IMG/VR virus record: IMGVR_UViG_3300044972_000142
Span: 1 to 22,548 of that record
DNA: 22,548 nucleotides
Direction: 5' to 3' (one strand)
DNA from: a virus
Shown here: positions 9,909 through 21,220 of the stretch, in pieces
Layout: each line of letters opens with the position of its first letter
Numbering within the stretch: the stretch's first letter is position 1
The notes under the pieces: generated by a model
Seen by the model: only the letters and a program-made list of their open reading frames with translations
Database searches by the model: none
Told to the model about the DNA's origin: nothing
Made by a program: the position numbers and the translations under genes

Positions 9909-10277
9909 ATGACAACTTTCACAAACGAAGTATTACTACCACTCACAACATACGGAACTCCGTCAGGCAATTATGATGGATCTAGTACCAGTTTTATTGG
10001 TAATGCTATTCCAGCTGCAAACTATTACGGCGGGCAGGGCTCAGCTCAGACCGCCGTAGTACAATCAACTGGATTTGTGGGAGTTGTTACTATTGAAGCT
10101 ACACTAAATGATTGGACACAGCAAGCACTATGGTTTGAAGTTGAAACTTATGGCAATGCCAATGTCGCTACTACTGATACACAAGCAATTAACATGATCG
10201 GTAATTTTGTATGGTTACGTGCTAAAGTAACCGACTTTACTGCCGGTTCCTTAAACTCAGCAAATGTGGTTTATTAA
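9909..10277 (+). CDS. Small probable virion structural protein
   Basis: 122 residues, rich in Gly, Thr, Ser, Asn and aromatic residues, with no Cys and little charge, as in beta-rich phage tail, neck or head-decoration proteins. Recognisable blocks are LPLTTYGTPSGNYDGSS, QSTGFVGVVTIEATL and GNFVWLRAKVTDFTAG. I do not know a named function; the structural role is inferred from composition and from the perfect late promoter directly upstream. Its TAA overlaps the ATG of the nucleotidyltransferase by one base (TAATG), suggesting coupled translation. Confidence 0.8.
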   Translation: MTTFTNEVLLPLTTYGTPSGNYDGSSTSFIGNAIPAANYYGGQGSAQTAVVQSTGFVGVVTIEATLNDWTQQALWFEVETYGNANVATTDTQAINMIGNFVWLRAKVTDFTAGSLNSANVVY

Positions 10278-12165: not shown

Positions 12166-14313
12166 ATGAATATTAATCAACTTGAATCTTATAACTTAGC
12201 AGATGCTGTCAAGTTCCATGACACACTCAATCCCCTATTATGGGATCGGCGTGAAAATTTGCACCCTGAAATACATGATCAACTAATGGCCATAGTCGCT
12301 GATTTCAGTGAGTTTTTAGGAGTCAAAGATTTAGATCTTAAAGATATAACTATATCCGGTAGCAATGCTGCATACTCATATACTCCAAATTCCGATATAG
12401 ATTTACATTTAATTGTTGATTTATCTAACGTAGAACATGAAGAAGTTTATAGAGAATTGTTTACTGCTAAGAAAGCTATCTATAATAAAGAAAATACTAT
12501 TACTATAAAAGGCATTCCTGTTGAATTATATGTGCAGGATGCTACACAACAACATCATAGTCAAGGCATTTATAGTTTGTTAAATAGCAGCTGGATTCAA
12601 ATTCCTCGTCGTATTCAAGCTGATATAGATGATATGAGTGTACGTAGCAAATACGAAGATTTAAGTAAACGCATTAACAAAGTAATTAAAACCAAAGATC
12701 TAGTTAAGATGAATGAGCTTATGGATAAAATTAGACTTATGCGTAGCGCAGGGTTGGCTGAACACGGTGAGTTTGGTCCTGAAAATTTAGCATTTAAATT
12801 ATTACGTAATACGGGCGAAATTCAAAAATTACAAACTGCTAGACAACAAGCAAAAGATTTAGAATTAAGTTTAAAAGAACGTGTTCGCAAGCCTGTTACA
12901 TATGGATATGGAGTTGACTATATTGAAGAAGTTGGCTTAACTCCGGATGGCACTAACCCTACTACCAGTGAGTTTACCAATGAATCGCAGTTAGATGAAG
13001 TTGGCTTAACACCAGATGGCACTAATCCTACTACAAGTCAATTTACTAACGAAACACAAGATGCTCACAAAAACGTCATTGAAGATTTTATGATATTTTG
13101 TGCCGATCAATTAGGTATAGAAAAAGACATAAATTTAAGAGTACGCCGTGATCCACAATGGTCAGTACGCAATAAGACATTTGGCAGATACAATGATGGC
13201 ACTAATGAATTAGAAGTTGGCATTGGTGGCAGGCATATCATGGATGTACTACGAACTGTTGCACATGAGTTAGTACATCAAAAGCAAAATCAACATGAGC
13301 AAGTGCCTATGGATGCTGGTGCTGACGGTAGCAAATATGAAAACGAAGCTAATGCTCGAGCTGGTGTACTGATGCGACAGTATGGCAAATTACATCCTGA
13401 GTTATTTGCCGAAGGTATTGAATTAAAAGAAGCATCAGGATATATTCCTACGGCAGCAGAAGCCGATGATCCACGTTTTGAAATGGCATTAACAGTTGAC
13501 GTCAGACCAGGCGCATTAGGCAAAGCTGCTAATAGTTTTTTATTAAACACTGATAGTCAAGGTCATCCACAGGAACTACGTCCAGATGGATTAGTTAAAC
13601 GTATGACAGAAGAATTGGCATTATTTAAAAAAAAACAAACGATTAAACTAACTGAAAATAAGTTAAGATTTAGTCGTGATAAACTAGACGATCTCTTAAA
13701 TGATTTATGCGAAAAAGTCATTAAGGCACAAGCAAAAGCTCCTGACTTTTATGGTATGGTAGCTGCTGCTGTTATTGATCCTACTGGAAAACTAGCAACA
13801 GGAATAAATTATCTTTACGGCAATGAGCGTATACATGCTGAAAGAGATGCCATAGACAATTATGAAAAAAAGTATGGCGAATTACCACCTGATTGTATTG
13901 TAGTTACTACACTAAGTCCGTGTAATCAAGATACAGGTGACATAAAAGAAGTGACCTGTACCGAAGTACTAAACAAAAAGAACATTAAAATAGCCTATTG
14001 TGGATACAAAGATCCAACACAGCATAAAGAAGATAACGATTTTACAATCCTTATTACAAAAAATGAAAAAATAGAGCAAATGTGCAAAGAATTGGCCGAT
14101 ACCTTTTTAGATGAAAATGCAAAAGGAATTGGCATTAATGTATATGAAAACTTTGCCGACGGTAAAGGCCCAGGGCGTCCAGGTGACAGTGTCAGACATG
14201 GTATTCCTAAAAAAGCTACAAAAGCTGAATTAACTAAGGCAAGTCATGCGAAGGGTCGTAAAGGGCAATTAGCCCGTTGGCAATTAAACATGAGAAATGG
14301 GCGCAATAAGTAA
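12166..14313 (+). CDS. Three-domain fusion: nucleotidyltransferase fold, HExxH metallopeptidase, RibD-like deaminase
   Basis: 715 residues. Domain 1 (about 1-240): ISGSNAAYSYTPNSDIDLHLIVD (63-85) is a minimal nucleotidyltransferase signature, with G65-S66, metal ligands D77/D79 and a likely third acid E120. Linker (about 250-298): two tandem 23-residue units starting EVGLTPDGTNPTTS. Domain 2 (about 299-415): VAHELVHQ, zinc ligands H368 and H372, catalytic E369, and probable third ligand E394 in YENEANARAG. Domain 3 (about 500-650): deaminase with HAE (557-559), PC586 and C598, then YCGYKDPTQ, resembling RibD/dCMP deaminases. The tail (about 668-715) is basic (RPGDSVRHGIPKK...QLARWQLNMR). All catalytic residues appear intact. 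[LI]-x-E sites occur at both domain boundaries (IEE|V and LDE|V in the linker, LKE|A at 420-423). An in-frame TTG at 12148 is a less likely start. Confidence 0.85.
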   Translation: MNINQLESYNLADAVKFHDTLNPLLWDRRENLHPEIHDQLMAIVADFSEFLGVKDLDLKDITISGSNAAYSYTPNSDIDLHLIVDLSNVEHEEVYRELFTAKKAIYNKENTITIKGIPVELYVQDATQQHHSQGIYSLLNSSWIQIPRRIQADIDDMSVRSKYEDLSKRINKVIKTKDLVKMNELMDKIRLMRSAGLAEHGEFGPENLAFKLLRNTGEIQKLQTARQQAKDLELSLKERVRKPVTYGYGVDYIEEVGLTPDGTNPTTSEFTNESQLDEVGLTPDGTNPTTSQFTNETQDAHKNVIEDFMIFCADQLGIEKDINLRVRRDPQWSVRNKTFGRYNDGTNELEVGIGGRHIMDVLRTVAHELVHQKQNQHEQVPMDAGADGSKYENEANARAGVLMRQYGKLHPELFAEGIELKEASGYIPTAAEADDPRFEMALTVDVRPGALGKAANSFLLNTDSQGHPQELRPDGLVKRMTEELALFKKKQTIKLTENKLRFSRDKLDDLLNDLCEKVIKAQAKAPDFYGMVAAAVIDPTGKLATGINYLYGNERIHAERDAIDNYEKKYGELPPDCIVVTTLSPCNQDTGDIKEVTCTEVLNKKNIKIAYCGYKDPTQHKEDNDFTILITKNEKIEQMCKELADTFLDENAKGIGINVYENFADGKGPGRPGDSVRHGIPKKATKAELTKASHAKGRKGQLARWQLNMRNGRNK
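12928..13065 (+). repeat. Tandem 69-base repeat encoding the linker of the fusion protein
   Basis: Two 69-base units (12928-12996 and 12997-13065) encode two copies of a 23-residue sequence, EVGLTPDGTNPTTS followed by EFTNES or QFTNET; the last few residues of each unit differ. Differences between copies are mostly third-position changes, which suggests selection on the protein. Confidence 0.85.
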
Positions 14314-14315
14314 TT

Positions 14316-14323
14316 ACTAAATA
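14316..14323 (+). promoter_or_regulatory. T4-like late promoter octamer before the gene at 14328
   Basis: ACTAAATA, ending 4 bases before the ATG at 14328, just past the stop of the fusion gene. It would start transcripts at or beside the ATG. Confidence 0.45.
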
Positions 14324-14327
14324 CAGT

Positions 14328-14612
14328 ATGACAAAACAATTTGTACGCATACTGAGTAATATTGATTGCGAATGGGAAGGACTCAGTCCCATTTATCGAT
14401 TATATGTTAATGACGAGTTATTTTCTGAACGTACTTGGATTTGGACTGATAGTACTTTAGAAGAGAATTTACAAATTGAAGCTGAACCTGGTGTATATAC
14501 ATTGCGTTATGATCTATTATCACCAAATTTAGCCCAGTTGAAAGTGGGCAGTTTAAGTGTAGATTATGGTCCTGCTGAAGTAATAGACGATACACATTTT
14601 AGGATAGTATAA
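14328..14612 (+). CDS. Small conserved phage protein of unknown function
   Basis: 94 residues, predicted mostly beta. The block ISPxYRLYVNDELFSERTWIW is recognisable at about 17-40 (in this copy LSPIYRLYVNDELF), followed by EENLQIEAEPGVYTLRYDLL and a short beta-rich C-terminus. It is acidic, with no signal peptide or membrane segment. The name is unknown to me; the fold may be an immunoglobulin-like or beta-sandwich virion part (inference). The TAA overlaps the next ATG by one base (TAATG, 14610-14614), the same coupling seen between 9909 and 10277. Confidence 0.75.
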   Translation: MTKQFVRILSNIDCEWEGLSPIYRLYVNDELFSERTWIWTDSTLEENLQIEAEPGVYTLRYDLLSPNLAQLKVGSLSVDYGPAEVIDDTHFRIV

Positions 14613-14818
14613 TGAGATTATTTGAAATAGTAGGACTTAAAGAAGAAGCATCTGCGGGTTCTACTAGCAGCGGAAGCATTGCTACTGTATCTATGCCACT
14701 AGGAACTGTACAAAAAAGAATTCCTGCAGATAGTCTATTTTCCACTAAATATACTAATGATGAGAATCCAACGCCTAACACGCCAGATTCTTATAAAACA
14801 TATAAGCGGAACAAATGA
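14612..14818 (+). CDS. Small protein with capsid-targeting-like N-terminus
   Basis: 68 residues. The N-terminus MRLFEIVGLKEEASAG is short, amphipathic and followed by a Ser/Thr/Gly-rich region (STSSGSIATVSMPLG) and a polar basic tail (YKTYKRNK). It has the look of T4 internal-protein leaders (MKTYQEFIAEA-like), where the prohead protease cuts after [LI]-x-E; here L9-K10-E11 would be such a site. No enzyme motif is present. It is coupled on both sides (TAATG upstream, ATGA downstream to the Dps-like gene), so a role with its neighbours, perhaps inside the virion, is inferred. Coding status is supported by tight packing and composition. Confidence 0.65.
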   Translation: MRLFEIVGLKEEASAGSTSSGSIATVSMPLGTVQKRIPADSLFSTKYTNDENPTPNTPDSYKTYKRNK

Positions 14819-15258
14819 TGCTATCAGACTTAATGAAAACTTTATTAGCCAGTGACTTCAGTTATTATTTGAAGGCTCACTTTTTCCATTGGAACGTTGA
14901 AGGGAAAGATTTTTATCAATATCATCAATTTCTTCAGGCAGTATATGAAGATGCATATGAAGCTGTGGATAATATTGCTGAAATGATCAGAACTTTAAAC
15001 GAATATGCACCTGGTAGCTTTACACGTTATAATGAATTATCCCGTATTCAAGATCAAACCAAAGTGCCAAGAGCACAATTAATGCTTGAGGAATTATTGC
15101 ATGATTCCCATACTATGATTGAACTTCTTAATGAATGTTTTGCTGCCGCAGAAGCAGAGAACAAGCAAGACATTGCTAATTTTATCGCTGAAAGATTAAC
15201 TGCTACAAATAAGTTTATCTGGATGTTATCAAGTTTTTTAAGAGAAGCTAGAGCATAA
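14815..15258 (+). CDS. Dps-like ferritin
   Basis: 147 residues (146 if translation starts at the second of two adjacent ATGs). The signature YYLKAHFFHWNVEGKDFYQYH is followed by YEAVDNIAEMIR. Counting from the first Met, ferroxidase-site positions align as H25, H37, D52 and E56; the fifth, an Asp four residues after H37 in typical Dps, is Q41 here. The rest is a four-helix bundle ending IWMLSSFLREARA. Dps shells bind DNA and store iron while consuming peroxide; a phage copy could protect or compact DNA, or sequester iron. Loss of one ligand may weaken iron oxidation. It overlaps both neighbours by 1-4 bases. Confidence 0.85.
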   Translation: MMLSDLMKTLLASDFSYYLKAHFFHWNVEGKDFYQYHQFLQAVYEDAYEAVDNIAEMIRTLNEYAPGSFTRYNELSRIQDQTKVPRAQLMLEELLHDSHTMIELLNECFAAAEAENKQDIANFIAERLTATNKFIWMLSSFLREARA

Positions 15259-16211
15259 TGACAAACGACATTTACAGTATAATCGAAAGGTTAGCTATTC
15301 TAGAGGGGCGTATTGCTCCCAAGGACAGTAAGCCCATTACCGAAACCAAACAAAAGAAGCCTGCACTTTTCAATAACTTGAAAAAAACAGATGAAATGTT
15401 TATGCCCTCAGTTGGCGGTGTAGAAATGGCTGAAGATAACATGGAAGAAGATGTACTGTCAAAAGTCAAGGCCAGTTTAGCTGATTATTTACAATCTGCA
15501 GAAGCAGAAATTAATCAAGATAGAGATTTACTTGCTAAAAAGAAACAAGATTTAGATCTTAAGAAGAGAGAATTAAGAGATTTAGCATTACAAACTAAAC
15601 CCAATCATCAATCGAAAGATTCTTTGAAAGAATTTGTACCAAGCGACGGCGGCGATGATGGTAATGATGGATTTGATGAAGACACATTAAAGCGCCTTGC
15701 TGCCCAGTGGTACAACGGTGATGAAGATCCTGCTGTAGAACGTACTTTAATGGCTGCTGGTTGGGAAATTGGCCAGGATGAAGGCTATGAGGACGAACCT
15801 GGTGTATTTGTAGTCATGTCCGGTGATGAGCATGGTAAAACTTATATAAGCTGGCCAGCGGAAGAATTACGACAGAATATAGACGAAGAACCAAATCAAA
15901 CTCCGGCTGGCGGCGAAGCACCGTCTGGATTATCGAATCCAACATATGCCGAAAGTATAGGCTCTGCTCCGGTCAAAACAATACATGTTCCAGTCGACGA
16001 AGAAGTTGGACTTAGTGGTGGCGGTGGTGCTGTATTAGTTGAAATACATGGTGATGAGCGTGACGGGTTTCGTATTTGTCGCGCTGGCAAAGAATTACCC
16101 ACAAGATTTAGAACTTTGGAAGAATGTGAAATGGCATTAGAAATGTACATAGCACGGCGCAAGGCACAACACGTTGCAGATGAATCTGCCGATTATATTG
16201 AGGAAGCATAA
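15258..16211 (+). CDS. Acidic multidomain phage protein, probable virion-associated
   Basis: 317 residues. The N-terminus IYSIIERLAILEGRI is a short amphipathic leader with an I14-L15-E16/G17 site. A coiled coil spans about 63-112, then an Asp/Gly-rich linker (128-142). A small domain follows at about 143-200 (LKRLAAQWYNGDEDP...AAGWEIG...GVFVVMSGDEHGKTYISWP). A Pro/Ser linker then ends in DEEVGLSGGGG (247-257). A separate C-terminal module covers about 258-303 (VLVEIHGDERDGFRICRAGKELPTRFRTLEECEMALEMY, in blocks). I know no name for it. The DEEVGLS boundary closely resembles the linker units of the fusion protein at 12166. It is coupled to the Dps-like gene and to the next gene (TAATG at both ends). 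Confidence 0.75.
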   Translation: MTNDIYSIIERLAILEGRIAPKDSKPITETKQKKPALFNNLKKTDEMFMPSVGGVEMAEDNMEEDVLSKVKASLADYLQSAEAEINQDRDLLAKKKQDLDLKKRELRDLALQTKPNHQSKDSLKEFVPSDGGDDGNDGFDEDTLKRLAAQWYNGDEDPAVERTLMAAGWEIGQDEGYEDEPGVFVVMSGDEHGKTYISWPAEELRQNIDEEPNQTPAGGEAPSGLSNPTYAESIGSAPVKTIHVPVDEEVGLSGGGGAVLVEIHGDERDGFRICRAGKELPTRFRTLEECEMALEMYIARRKAQHVADESADYIEEA

Positions 16212-19200
16212 TGAATTTGTTTGACTTATTTGAAAGTAACCGCCTGTCAGAAGACAATGAGGGTAATCCAGTAGTAAGTGCTATCCTTCGTCGAATTTTG
16301 CACAACCCACGTCATAGTGTAATAGAGATGTATGGTGCCCGTGCTGTTATGGATGCAGTTAAAGAGGTAGCTGAGTGGGTAGGTGATGTTGACGAAATTG
16401 GCACCAGTGACGTTAGTGGTTGGGTAGCACAAGTTGAAGATATATTGAGATCGAATCCCAAAGAAGGTGAAATTGATGAGAAAATGGGATCATCATTAGT
16501 GAATAGACGCCAAGCGCATTCATTTATCACTAAGTTCAAAAAACCTAAATTTAACTTTGAAGAAGATGATGTAGATGAGGCAGCAATGAGTGATAAACAT
16601 AAAGAAAATCACCTTGCGGCAGTTCGTGCTTACCACGCTAAGAAAAAGGCCGATAAAGAACAACGAACAGCAGATAGTCGAGAGGCTTTTGGTAGTTGGT
16701 TTGGCGGCAGTTCTTCGGATCTAACAAAGAATCTTAAGATTAGAGACGAATCTAAAAAAAAAGAAGTAATTGATGCAGTAGTAGCTCATGGCTATGCGTA
16801 TAATCGCCAAGATCAACGTGTAGCATGGACTAAAGAATTTGCCAGCGAAGCAGAAGCCAAAGAATGGGCACGTCGTCGTAATGCTACTTTATTAAGCATT
16901 GTTCCAAAACAAGATGTAACAGAAGGTCGATTTGAATTAAATCGCAAGACTGGACAAATGAGTCATAATACATCAGATGCTGATCAGCGTCATGGATTAT
17001 ACATCAACAGCAAATTAGTTAAAACTTGCAACTCACGCGAAGAAGCAGAAAATGTCAAAAAACGTGATGCTAAATTTAAAGATGCTACTGTTAAAAAGAT
17101 AGCCGAATCTGCCGAAAACAAAAATAATTTATTGCTAGAAAGTATTTGTCATTCGATGACGCTTGAACAAAGACGAATTGTTGAAGGCATTGTAAAAGAA
17201 CTACGTCCATTAAATGAAATTGCATTAAATCCTAATCAAGTTCAACAGATATTTCAAACTGCTCAACAAGATTCTACCACTGCTGGTGGTAATCGCACAG
17301 TAATAGGACAGGGCAAAGATGTTGCTGTTAAAGTTAATGACACAATCAACAAAGTAGGCAAATGGTTACAAGATACAAGGCCAGTTCAGGGATTTGACAA
17401 AAAATTCGAACAACTTAAAACTATAGCTGGTAAAAAGTTTCCACAATTAGACAAACAACTTACATCAATGGGTGCTTGGGCTAAACAAAATCCAGGAAAA
17501 ACTGCGGCTATTATTGGTATACTGACCACTATTGCCGCATTGGCAGGCGGACCGGTTGGAGGCGCCATTGCTGGGCAAGTATTACGTGGCACTACTGAAT
17601 TATTGAAAGGTGAAAAGGTTTCAACTGCTATTGGTAAAGGCCTTAAATCTGCTGCGTTTGGTTATTTGACAGGTTCAGTATTAGACACCATTGGCGATTG
17701 GTTACGCACATGGACCTTAAACATGGTACAATACACTCCTGATATCAGACAAGCCAAATTTAGTTGGAGCGAGAAAATTTCTTGGGGTGATTCCGCTAAT
17801 GGCGGATCGCAAACTATATCTAGATCTTTAGACAGCGGATATTTTTTAAATGCTGATGCAGATCGTCTATCGCAATTAGTCAAAACTTTCAACAGTACTG
17901 GAAATCCTGCAACTAAAATTCAGACGTTTGAAGAATTTAAAAAACTGTTAGCAAAATGTGCAGAACCTGAATATTTTGAACGTGCTACAATTACCGACAA
18001 ATTAGATCGAGCTTTAGCCATAGCTAACAACAAATTGTATCAGAATACCGTTGAATTAACCAAAGACATAGCAGCAGGTGCACAAGGTGCGGTACAAGCT
18101 GCTACAGGAAATACAAAGAAACCAGCAGCAACTACTACTCCTGAGTCGATTAATCGTAACTTTGGTAGCGTTCAGTTGACTAACGAAGGTATTGGTGATA
18201 TGTTCAAAAAAGCCGCTGGTAAAGTAGGCCAATGGGCACAGACTAAAGGGCAAAACTTAACAACTAAAGTTACAGCAGACAAATTACAATCAGCATGGAA
18301 AAAAGCTGGCAGTCCAACAGATAGTGATGAGATTGCTAAGATATTACAAAGTGCCGGCGTTAATACAAAGATTATTACCCAAATTTACACTTCTATGAAT
18401 ATTCCGGCTCCAGCAGAACCAGCTCCGGCTCAAACGTCTACAGCACACCCAGCTCCGGCTCAAACGTCTACAGCACAACCAGCTCAACCAGCTCCAGCTC
18501 AACCAGCTCCAGCTCAAACGTCTACAGCGCAACCAGCTCAACCAGCTCCGGCACAAACAACAGGTGGGGCAGGTGCATTTGGACAAATGGTAAATCAATT
18601 AGGCGGGGTATCGAAAGCAGCGCCAGCAGTGCCAGCAACAACACCGAAACGTACACGTACAAAAAAATCACAAGCAGTTGCAGCTCCGGCTAAACAGCCA
18701 ACAACAGGTGGGGCAGGTGCATTTGATCAAATGACAAAGCAACTTACAAAAGAAGAAAGTATGAACTCCGCATCACACAATCCATCTGGGGCTAAGTTTG
18801 GCGGATACTACAAAGGTACACAGAAAGGGGCTCCACGCCCGGTACAAGGATTTGGTTCTATGGAAGAAGGTATTGCTGGCAATATGACTGTACGTTCTGA
18901 TCCATTAACTAAATTAAAGAAACCTGAAGATTTGAAAATGAAAGCAGCAGATCCTTTCAAAGGCATGCCTAATCGTAATAATCTAGTAAGCGCACAAGCA
19001 AGAAATTTAGTGGCAAAAGGCGCTCAAACAGCAGGTCCAGGCACTGGTGCTCATAAAAATAAAGCACTAGCGGTTAGTAAAGGTAAATTCCGCGATATCA
19101 AACACAAAGGTAAATTTGATTTAGGCGAAGCACCTAACTTTTTAACTTGGGCTATGACTGCTGGATATAATGTAATTGGTAATCCTGCGGTATACGAAGA

Positions 19201-19402
19201 TGCCAAACGTGTATATAATAGTTTATTAAATGAAGATAAATCAGATTTAAAACCCGGACAATATTATATTTGGACAGCTTATTTTGATGATGGCACTAGT
19301 AAACGTATTAAGATTAAAGATGAAAAATTTGATGTAACTAAATATTACGCTGACAAAAATCAAGTGGTAGTAGACGTTGATTACAATTGGGAAGCGCATT
19401 AA
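16211..19402 (+). CDS. Large modular protein with glycine-zipper segment and Pro/Ala/Gln repeats, probable virion-internal
   Basis: 1063 residues. Leader MNLFDLFESNRLSEDN, with L12-S13-E14. Small alpha domain (about 17-80). A Lys/Ala/Glu helical region (127-160). Two small alpha/beta modules: 183-232 (KKEVIDAVVAHGY..RRRNATLLSIV) and 239-298 (FELNRKTGQMSH...DQRHGLYINSKLVKTCNSREEAENVKKRD). A helical part has a Gly/Ala-rich hydrophobic stretch at about 430-460 (GILTTIAALAGGPVGGAIAG), resembling a glycine zipper. A mixed region covers 500-620. A module around 655-730 contains AWKKAGSPTDSDEIAKIL and AGVNTKIITQIY. Pro/Ala/Gln/Thr repeats fill 731-785, two TTGGAGAF blocks follow, and a C-terminal domain runs from about 960 to 1063. 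No catalytic motif is seen. Membrane-active or packaged function is inferred. Confidence 0.75.
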   Translation: MNLFDLFESNRLSEDNEGNPVVSAILRRILHNPRHSVIEMYGARAVMDAVKEVAEWVGDVDEIGTSDVSGWVAQVEDILRSNPKEGEIDEKMGSSLVNRRQAHSFITKFKKPKFNFEEDDVDEAAMSDKHKENHLAAVRAYHAKKKADKEQRTADSREAFGSWFGGSSSDLTKNLKIRDESKKKEVIDAVVAHGYAYNRQDQRVAWTKEFASEAEAKEWARRRNATLLSIVPKQDVTEGRFELNRKTGQMSHNTSDADQRHGLYINSKLVKTCNSREEAENVKKRDAKFKDATVKKIAESAENKNNLLLESICHSMTLEQRRIVEGIVKELRPLNEIALNPNQVQQIFQTAQQDSTTAGGNRTVIGQGKDVAVKVNDTINKVGKWLQDTRPVQGFDKKFEQLKTIAGKKFPQLDKQLTSMGAWAKQNPGKTAAIIGILTTIAALAGGPVGGAIAGQVLRGTTELLKGEKVSTAIGKGLKSAAFGYLTGSVLDTIGDWLRTWTLNMVQYTPDIRQAKFSWSEKISWGDSANGGSQTISRSLDSGYFLNADADRLSQLVKTFNSTGNPATKIQTFEEFKKLLAKCAEPEYFERATITDKLDRALAIANNKLYQNTVELTKDIAAGAQGAVQAATGNTKKPAATTTPESINRNFGSVQLTNEGIGDMFKKAAGKVGQWAQTKGQNLTTKVTADKLQSAWKKAGSPTDSDEIAKILQSAGVNTKIITQIYTSMNIPAPAEPAPAQTSTAHPAPAQTSTAQPAQPAPAQPAPAQTSTAQPAQPAPAQTTGGAGAFGQMVNQLGGVSKAAPAVPATTPKRTRTKKSQAVAAPAKQPTTGGAGAFDQMTKQLTKEESMNSASHNPSGAKFGGYYKGTQKGAPRPVQGFGSMEEGIAGNMTVRSDPLTKLKKPEDLKMKAADPFKGMPNRNNLVSAQARNLVAKGAQTAGPGTGAHKNKALAVSKGKFRDIKHKGKFDLGEAPNFLTWAMTAGYNVIGNPAVYEDAKRVYNSLLNEDKSDLKPGQYYIWTAYFDDGTSKRIKIKDEKFDVTKYYADKNQVVVDVDYNWEAH
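18409..18556 (+). repeat. Tandem Pro/Ala/Gln/Thr-coding repeats
   Basis: Two 30-base units at 18421-18450 and 18451-18480 differ at one base, followed by degenerate copies of CCAGCTCCAGCTCAA to about 18556. They encode PAPAQTSTAQPAQ-type linkers. Slippage could vary the copy number. Confidence 0.9.
18557..18725 (+). repeat. Pair of identical 25-base direct repeats
   Basis: Identical segments at 18557-18581 and 18701-18725 encode TTGGAGAF at the ends of the two linker blocks. The repeat marks a duplicated TTGGAGAFxQMxxQL segment (residues about 783-797 and 831-845) in the large protein. Confidence 0.85.
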
Positions 19403-20959: not shown

Positions 20960-21220
20960 ATGTCAGATAGAACTTTTTCAGGCGAGCAAACTAAAAAACT
21001 CGAACAAATGATTAACGAAGGTATGAGCGTTATGATGGAAATCGAAACACTTACCGGCGGATTAAACGATACTGTGAAAGCAGTAGCAGAAGAATTAGAA
21101 ATCAAACCAGGTATTCTTAAAAAAGCAATTCGTTTAGCACATAAAGCTGAGTTTGGTAAAGAACAGCAGGACCACAGTTTGTTAGAAACTATTTTAACAC
21201 AAGTTGGAAAAACACTCTAA
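20960..21220 (+). CDS. dsbA: DsbA-like small double-stranded-DNA-binding protein
   Basis: 86 residues, helical and charged. The pattern INEGMSVMMEIETLTGGLNDTVKAVAEELEIKPGILKKAIRLAHKAEF resembles T4 DsbA, a dsDNA-binding protein linked to late transcription: an N-terminal helix, a GLNDT turn, then a xAEELxIKPGxLKKAI helix-turn-helix-like block. AAAGGAG (20947-20953) stands six bases before the ATG, the best Shine-Dalgarno in the window. It is read from a sigma-70-type promoter and lies 80 bases before the DNA polymerase gene, probably in one transcript. In T4, dsbA lies elsewhere (near genes 33 and 59), so the order differs. Family call is moderate, based on similarity of a short protein. Confidence 0.65.
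   Translation: MSDRTFSGEQTKKLEQMINEGMSVMMEIETLTGGLNDTVKAVAEELEIKPGILKKAIRLAHKAEFGKEQQDHSLLETILTQVGKTL

Follow-up and report, generated by a model that had tools for sequence, protein, structure and literature searches.

The record IMGVR_UViG_3300044972_000142, which we analysed as the complete IMG/VR entry (22,548 bases, called the window below), holds a chain of five genes that encode, in order, a 94-residue protein, a 68-residue protein, a Dps-like ferritin, a 317-residue protein, and a 1063-residue mosaic protein (Table 1). Each gene overlaps the next by 1-4 bases: the first junction is a TAATG with an overlap of 1 base, the second reads ATGATG and overlaps by 4 bases (ATGA) or by 1 base if the second ATG (14818), at which homologues begin, is used, and the starts at 15258 and 16211 both lie within taATG. 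An earlier note on this DNA had described an overlap-coupled cluster of four genes, three of them with short N-terminal leaders bearing an [LI]-x-E motif. The junctions (TAATG/ATGA, 1-4 bases) are as described, but the chain consists of five genes (14328-19402) rather than four, and the three leaders are present (E11, E16, and E8 or E14), carried by three of the five genes. Judging from the comparisons given below, the chain is probably a translationally coupled late operon that encodes proteins of the virion interior in a T4-type (Rak2/PA5oct-like) jumbo phage.

Gene order, late element, and phage type

A query with the Dps protein identified 58 loci among viral contigs. The order 94-residue/68-residue/Dps/317-residue/~1000-residue protein is preserved down to ~60% Dps identity, and it recurs in most of the 35 distinct Dps loci. 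In a second clade (48-51% Dps identity) the gene upstream of Dps encodes another mosaic protein (MSNILKGI[LI]NE...), and the one downstream often encodes a protein with a leader of the internal protein (IP) type (MRATEFIIEN...). At L011-L013 and L015-L017 we saw a gene on the opposite strand inserted between the 68-residue gene and Dps, beginning either MSIYYLYKKTRRITGLQYLGQ..., which has the look of a GIY-YIG endonuclease, or MSIYRKDSYHRKIYEDHYG....

The sequence CTAAATACAG[TC]ATG stands ahead of the operon's first gene in 17/17 relatives while its flanks diverge, and since this T4-like late element ends a few nucleotides before the start codon in all of them, it suggests that the mRNA of the first gene is almost leaderless. 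The pattern [ATC]TAAATA was found ≤60 nt upstream of 42/182 and 61/432 genes, where 4.2 and 6.2 were expected; these genes include the portal, several baseplate-, sheath-, and fibre-like genes, a superoxide dismutase (SOD), and several leader genes. We take the operon to be late-expressed from the conserved TAAATA element, as predicted from its sequence.

The relatives are Rak2/PA5oct-like T4-type jumbo phages, and the gene set with Dps occurs in freshwater members. A gp21-type prohead protease gene, adjoining those for a gp22-like scaffold and a gp23-type major capsid protein (MCP), was present in 6/6 of the longest related records, and a gp21-type protease was found in 8/8 cultured relatives tested. 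The nearest cultured MCPs are those of PA5oct, Vibrio 2.275.O, Phosso, and the GAP32/CBB/121Q/RaK2 group. There is one full gp23-family gene per genome (L148-L155, G001-G006), to which Phosso adds two short partial matches, and no clear gp24-like vertex paralogue was found in L148-L155 and G001-G006.

Table 1. Positions of the operon genes and of related features in the window. A slash marks a predicted point of cleavage.
Feature	Position	Strand	Basis or remark
94-residue protein, first gene of the chain	14328-14612	+	No leader and no family match; neighbour conserved in relatives
68-residue protein: leader, predicted gp21 site, mimic of the mature MCP N-arm, basic tail	14612-14818	+	hhalign; orthologues in cultured jumbo phages
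Dps-like ferritin, no leader	14815-15258	+	Pfam, PHROG, and PDB matches; probable start 14818
317-residue cargo-type protein	15258-16211	+	Conserved [LI]xE leader; site excess in family
1063-residue mosaic protein	16211-19402	+	Leader; internal [LIVM]xE[GAS] sites
Leader MRLFEIVGLKE of the 68-residue protein	14612-14644	+	Predicted cleavage after E11; aligned to MCP site KYLKE/NATSG
Putative coat-arm mimic LKEEASAGSTSSGSIATVSMPLGTVQKRI	14636-14722	+	hhalign match to MCP N-arm
Leader MTNDIYSIIERLAILE/G of the 317-residue protein	15258-15305	+	E16
Helical module, residues 10-85 of the 1063-residue protein	16238-16465	+	Five helices, AlphaFold pLDDT 74
C-terminal modules common across the 1063-residue family	18860-19399	+	Bounds MEE/GIAGN and LGE/APNF
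T4-like late-promoter element CTAAATAC	14317-14324	+	Ends 3-4 nt ahead of the first start codon
715-residue multidomain protein upstream of the operon, no clear leader	12166-14313	+	Pfam dCMP deaminase 9e-9, NTP_transf_2 0.0028

Leaders and protease-type sites

The leader peptides of the operon are MRLFEIVGLKE, MNLFDLFESNRLSE, and MTNDIYSIIERLAILE, with the 1063-residue protein beginning MNLFDLFE(SNRLSE). When the leaders were compared with those of homologues, the [LI]xE motif was retained in most, and in the 317-residue family it lies at residues ~15-18 in nearly all members. In the 1063-residue family, 137 pairs are unrelated over residues 19-160 but share a mean of 5 identities over the first 8. 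An IP-like leader pattern was found on 8, 10, 10, and 3 N-termini in four related genomes (shuffled means 1.5, 1.9, 1.8, and 0.9, the count of 3 in the fourth genome being within chance), and with all loci pooled it occurs on ~30 mutually unrelated families. Pfam names for some of the leader-bearing proteins are Fe/Mn superoxide dismutase, GNAT, HD_4, ART-PolyVal (below cut-off), GH19, and GP88. Since the whole-proteome position profile of [LIVF]xE is nearly flat, we base the leader claim on the stricter pattern and on the comparative evidence. The capsid targeting sequences of T4 are 10-19 residues long (PMC9026906).

Two kinds of leader-bearing enzyme were seen in the related loci. Fe/Mn SODs with the IP-type leader MRNEINLIE/AST are encoded at L099:8097-8639, L125:3160-3702, and L116:1434-1988, and a copy in G002 has the late-promoter element. 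An HD_4-domain protein resembling small ppGpp hydrolases (L138:10809-11306) has the leader MKINELLE/S, and is possibly a packaged alarmone enzyme.

Sites of the gp21 type, [LIVM]xE[GAS], also occur within the 1063-residue protein (E123, E238, E299, E310, E325, E886, and E973), which by itself has 8 such sites where 2.6 are expected (z 3.2). When 1,979 proteins were ranked by the excess of this motif, gp22-like scaffolds and the 1063-residue family stood at or near the top. Summed by family, sites versus expected numbered 65 vs 12 for the scaffold, 149 vs 53 for the 1063-residue family, 64 vs 30 for the 317-residue family, and 19 vs 5 for the second-clade arm proteins, although family z-scores are inflated because the members are homologous; in control families the numbers were 42 vs 31 (ClpB-like), 5 vs 4.7 (PhoH/rSAM), and 16 vs 19 (Dps). 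The excess is specific to [LIVM]xE[GAS], with none in the D and K controls and housekeeping families near 1. The boundaries of homology blocks coincide with these sites, 124 block starts (38 expected) and 70 block ends (29 expected) falling on them, and this coincidence was lost with D, Q, K, or S/T replacing E and was weak for E with a polar P3. A joint motif, QGVxEG, is real but rare (12 sites). In five or six relatives the N-terminal helical module of the window protein lies instead at the C-terminus or close to it, and the AlphaFold model of this module had no fold match in the PDB. Searches of the whole protein gave no Pfam or PHROG match and no recognisable conflict or enzymatic domains. 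From its sites and shuffled blocks, we infer that the 1063-residue protein may be a head-loaded polyprotein.

Upstream of the operon, the 715-residue protein has nucleotidyltransferase-like and deaminase domains, and in relatives its family shares modules with the 1063-residue family. We noted that it carries a duplicated segment, EVGLTPDGTNPTTS[EQ]FTNE. At 77-775 on the minus strand the window has an HNH-type endonuclease-like open reading frame (ORF); a similar ORF adjoins the MCP gene in G006.

A small protein with a segment like the coat-protein arm

The 68-residue protein resembles the N-terminal arm of the mature MCP, and the two predicted cleavage sites align in register (KYLKE/NATSGSTASGNIATLNRVILPVIRRV in MCP, VGLKE/EASAGSTSSGSIATVSMPLGTVQKRI in the 68-residue protein). 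By hhalign the 68-residue family matched the MCP N-arm with a score of 41.7 (probability 94), versus a maximum of 18.4 for column shuffles, and among 70 conserved families compared with the 68-residue profile the full-length MCP scored 37.6 and the next best 19.2. In the proteome of the nearest genome, MCP was the top match to the window's 68-residue protein once its own family was excluded (score 67 vs ≤58 in 40 shuffled queries), and a relative matched the PA5oct MCP in a single-sequence BLAST search (E 3.9e-5). The single-sequence matches between the 68-residue protein and MCP in G002 and G003 were not significant, so we base the claim of an arm mimic on the profile. Residues 8-37 are the only part that matches MCP, corresponding to the cleavage site and roughly the first 25 residues of the mature arm; no HK97 fold was found after the arm in the 68-residue protein, where only a short basic tail follows. 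In T4 the N-terminal region of gp23* becomes ordered upon expansion, and its N-arm/N-fist touches four subunits (PMC9958956).

Direct tblastn searches of 50,697 phage records with the 68-residue and 1063-residue proteins found nothing, the orthologues being visible only by per-genome profile search. Such searches found an MCP arm and a further arm protein in 7/7 cultured jumbo phages with clear matches; the matches in Phosso and Atu_ph07 were weak. The second arm proteins are GAP32_288, CBB_293, 121Q_22, an unannotated RaK2 ORF, NVP2275O_020 (Vibrio 2.275.O), and the fusions PA5oct EST35_0203 (498 residues) and SCTP-2 gp237, in which, as in the second freshwater clade, the arm segment is joined to a larger body. 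The predicted P1' starts are NASSGATSAG... in 121Q_22 and ETASAGASSAGG... in EST35_0203, and PA5oct has only two arm-like segments, in its MCP and in EST35_0203. The RaK2 ORF begins MKKTINENASSGSTSSGSIASTTNGLHYPLVTRLPKTNFFG... and lies at ~120.6-120.9 kb of JQ513383 (L178:2640-2860). We set aside an apparent counterexample with a different MCP alongside an arm protein, G005 (IMGVR_UViG_3300032562_000004, 235,812 bp; L075-L086), as the contig appears chimeric: its relatedness to the group jumps from ~30% over 0-155 kb, which resembles a different T4-like phage, to 70-80% over 160-235 kb, which belongs to the jumbo group.

Virion mass spectrometry (MS) flags in the PA5oct record mark the SOD EST35_0261 (MNDSIKKYISIAE/AASS; predicted P1' start AASSVKK...), the arm-bearing EST35_0203, and EST35_0202, an MKSFRDYY protein homologous to the MKNFKDYLTE family. 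The cargo region of the window is flanked by genes at 9909-10277 and 20960-21220, whose PA5oct homologues (EST35_0299 and EST35_0310) are MS-flagged. In CBB virions, the neighbours of the arm gene, CBB_292 and CBB_294, were detected by MS (PMC5259590).

A scheme for the operon, its rivals, and known systems

In the scheme that we propose, the leaders would dock proteins on the scaffold core and be stripped by gp21 during prohead maturation, and within the head gp21 would also divide the 1063-residue mosaic into individual modules. The 68-residue protein, cut at its MCP-like site, would expose an N-arm-like segment able to occupy an MCP-arm site of the shell or to anchor cargo at it, while the basic tail of the protein points towards the DNA. 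The Dps cage would be co-assembled into the head through contact with its partners, and there limit iron or peroxide damage to packaged or injected DNA. A fuller version, which we offer tentatively and with some doubt, is that the cleaved 68-residue family occupies MCP N-arm sites while the fusions (EST35_0203, gp237, and the second freshwater clade) tether cargo to the capsid wall, and that the head-loaded 1063-residue polyprotein is split by the prohead protease into shuffled effector modules delivered with the Dps cage. The earlier note had supposed a cargo operon that included the ferritin; this idea is well supported for the leader proteins, given the leaders, the gp21, scaffold, and MCP genes in relatives, the late element, the sites, and the PA5oct flags, and is more doubtful for the ferritin, which has no leader and no site excess.

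Several points weigh against the operon encoding virion-interior proteins. Packaging, cleavage, and injection in these phages are steps that we infer, and the window, a fragment of 22.5 kb, encodes neither a protease nor an MCP of its own. Leaders showed no significant enrichment in the MS-positive set of PA5oct (10/89 vs 20/311, p=0.17), the 68-residue orthologue CBB_293 is missing from the table of CBB virion proteins detected by MS (PMC5259590), and covariation between a mimic and the MCP of the same phage was marginal and not significant (1378/20000 permutations). In addition, the Dps protein begins in helix A with no leader and no [LI]xE, and a Dps homologue was found in 0/9 cultured relatives searched.

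Dps packaging is the weakest step of the scheme. The protein itself is convincing as a ferritin, with matches to Pfam Ferritin PF00210 (2.9e-19), PHROG 3636 (1.6e-30), and, over its whole length, Dps in the PDB (1.2e-22), and H25, H37, D52, and E56, which we take to be the Dps ferroxidase ligands, are invariant in 12 sequences. Upstream of Dps there is an arm protein (22/33) or a mosaic protein (6/33), making 28 of the 35 distinct Dps genes, and downstream a 317-residue-family (22) or IP-leader (8) protein in 30/35. Being mostly sandwiched between cargo-type genes makes its packaging plausible, and we regard packaging through co-assembly with operon partners as close to an even call that leans slightly against. 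The leading alternative is that the leaders and cargo are real while Dps stays outside the virion, made late in the cell, coupled for expression only, and protecting replicating phage DNA or scavenging iron. We consider this a serious possibility somewhat short of even. The absences already given, of leader, of site excess, and from the cultured relatives, speak for it, as does the lack of a Lys-rich N-terminal DNA-binding tail of the E. coli type; against it, Dps keeps cargo-type flanks even where both neighbours are replaced, and SOD, a further antioxidant enzyme in the group, bears a leader and has an MS-flagged homologue in PA5oct.

A second alternative concerns the 68-residue protein, which might regulate assembly: it would serve as a substrate-like decoy, either modulating gp21 or competing, prior to expansion, with the arms of MCP, and would be lost from the mature head. 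Copying of the cleavage site and the arm in register would fit such a role, and so would a CBB orthologue unseen by MS when both neighbours were seen; this reading nevertheless seems unlikely when the PA5oct arm segment lies within an MS-positive virion protein of 498 residues, and SCTP-2 and the second freshwater clade likewise have the arm joined to a larger body. Less likely still, the [LIVM]xE[GAS] segments could be no more than flexible linkers, or joints at which mosaic genes recombine, and remain uncleaved. Mosaic proteins often have short, acidic linkers that recombine, and cleavage here is predicted, but the enrichment requires E at P1, is best with a hydrophobic P3, and is absent from the D, Q, K, and S/T controls, and it is the gp22-like scaffold, belonging to a class of known gp21 substrates, that shows the signature most strongly. 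That this is an ordinary non-virion operon whose leaders are chance amphipathic helices is very improbable, for although [LI]xE turns up near N-termini at a fair rate by chance in AT-rich genomes, the leader is kept ahead of unrelated bodies and is accompanied by the late promoter, the arm mimicry, and the site pattern.

The sequence rule described here (leader, gp21-type sites at module joints, and arm mimic) makes it possible to list predicted head-interior proteins for a large group of giant phages in which most genes have no known function. SOD, HD, GNAT, ART, and Dps are testable candidates for what such phages bring into the cell first. The analysis also singles out a small conserved protein, related to the capsid, that lacks annotation in RaK2 and is labelled hypothetical in the other well-studied jumbo phages.

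The new parts are the arm mimic and the protease-bounded mosaic, of which we found no description in the open-licence literature searched. T4 IPI-III and Alt (PMC9026906, PMC5694885) share the short leader ending in [LI]xE, the gp21-type protease, late expression as predicted here, and a leader separable from unrelated bodies, whereas here the predicted cargo repertoire is larger (SOD, GNAT, HD, ART, lysozyme), one protein is a many-site mosaic, and Dps lies within the operon. Set beside the N-arm and N-fist of T4 gp23/gp24 (PMC9958956), the 68-residue protein aligns with the cleavage site and mature arm of MCP and has a short propeptide as in gp24, but lacks a capsid fold and occurs in genomes without a recognisable gp24 paralogue. 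The ferritin matches the Dps family (PDB 8ff9, 1ji4) over its whole length with intact ferroxidase residues, yet has no N-terminal Lys-rich tail and is encoded within a predicted capsid-cargo operon. Polyvalent proteins, which have been explicitly likened to polyproteins (Iyer et al. 2017, PMC5512222), are likewise multidomain mosaics near late or virion genes, predicted to be packaged and injected, with modules also found in other contexts; their release is attributed mainly to embedded peptidases, while the joints described here bear sites of the type cut by a separate gp21-type prohead protease. Finally, in phiKZ and SPN3US (PMC5694885) many head-interior inner-body proteins are also processed by the prohead protease, but there several propeptides exceed 100 residues and the motif is A/SxE, compared with 8-16 residues and [LIV]xE here.

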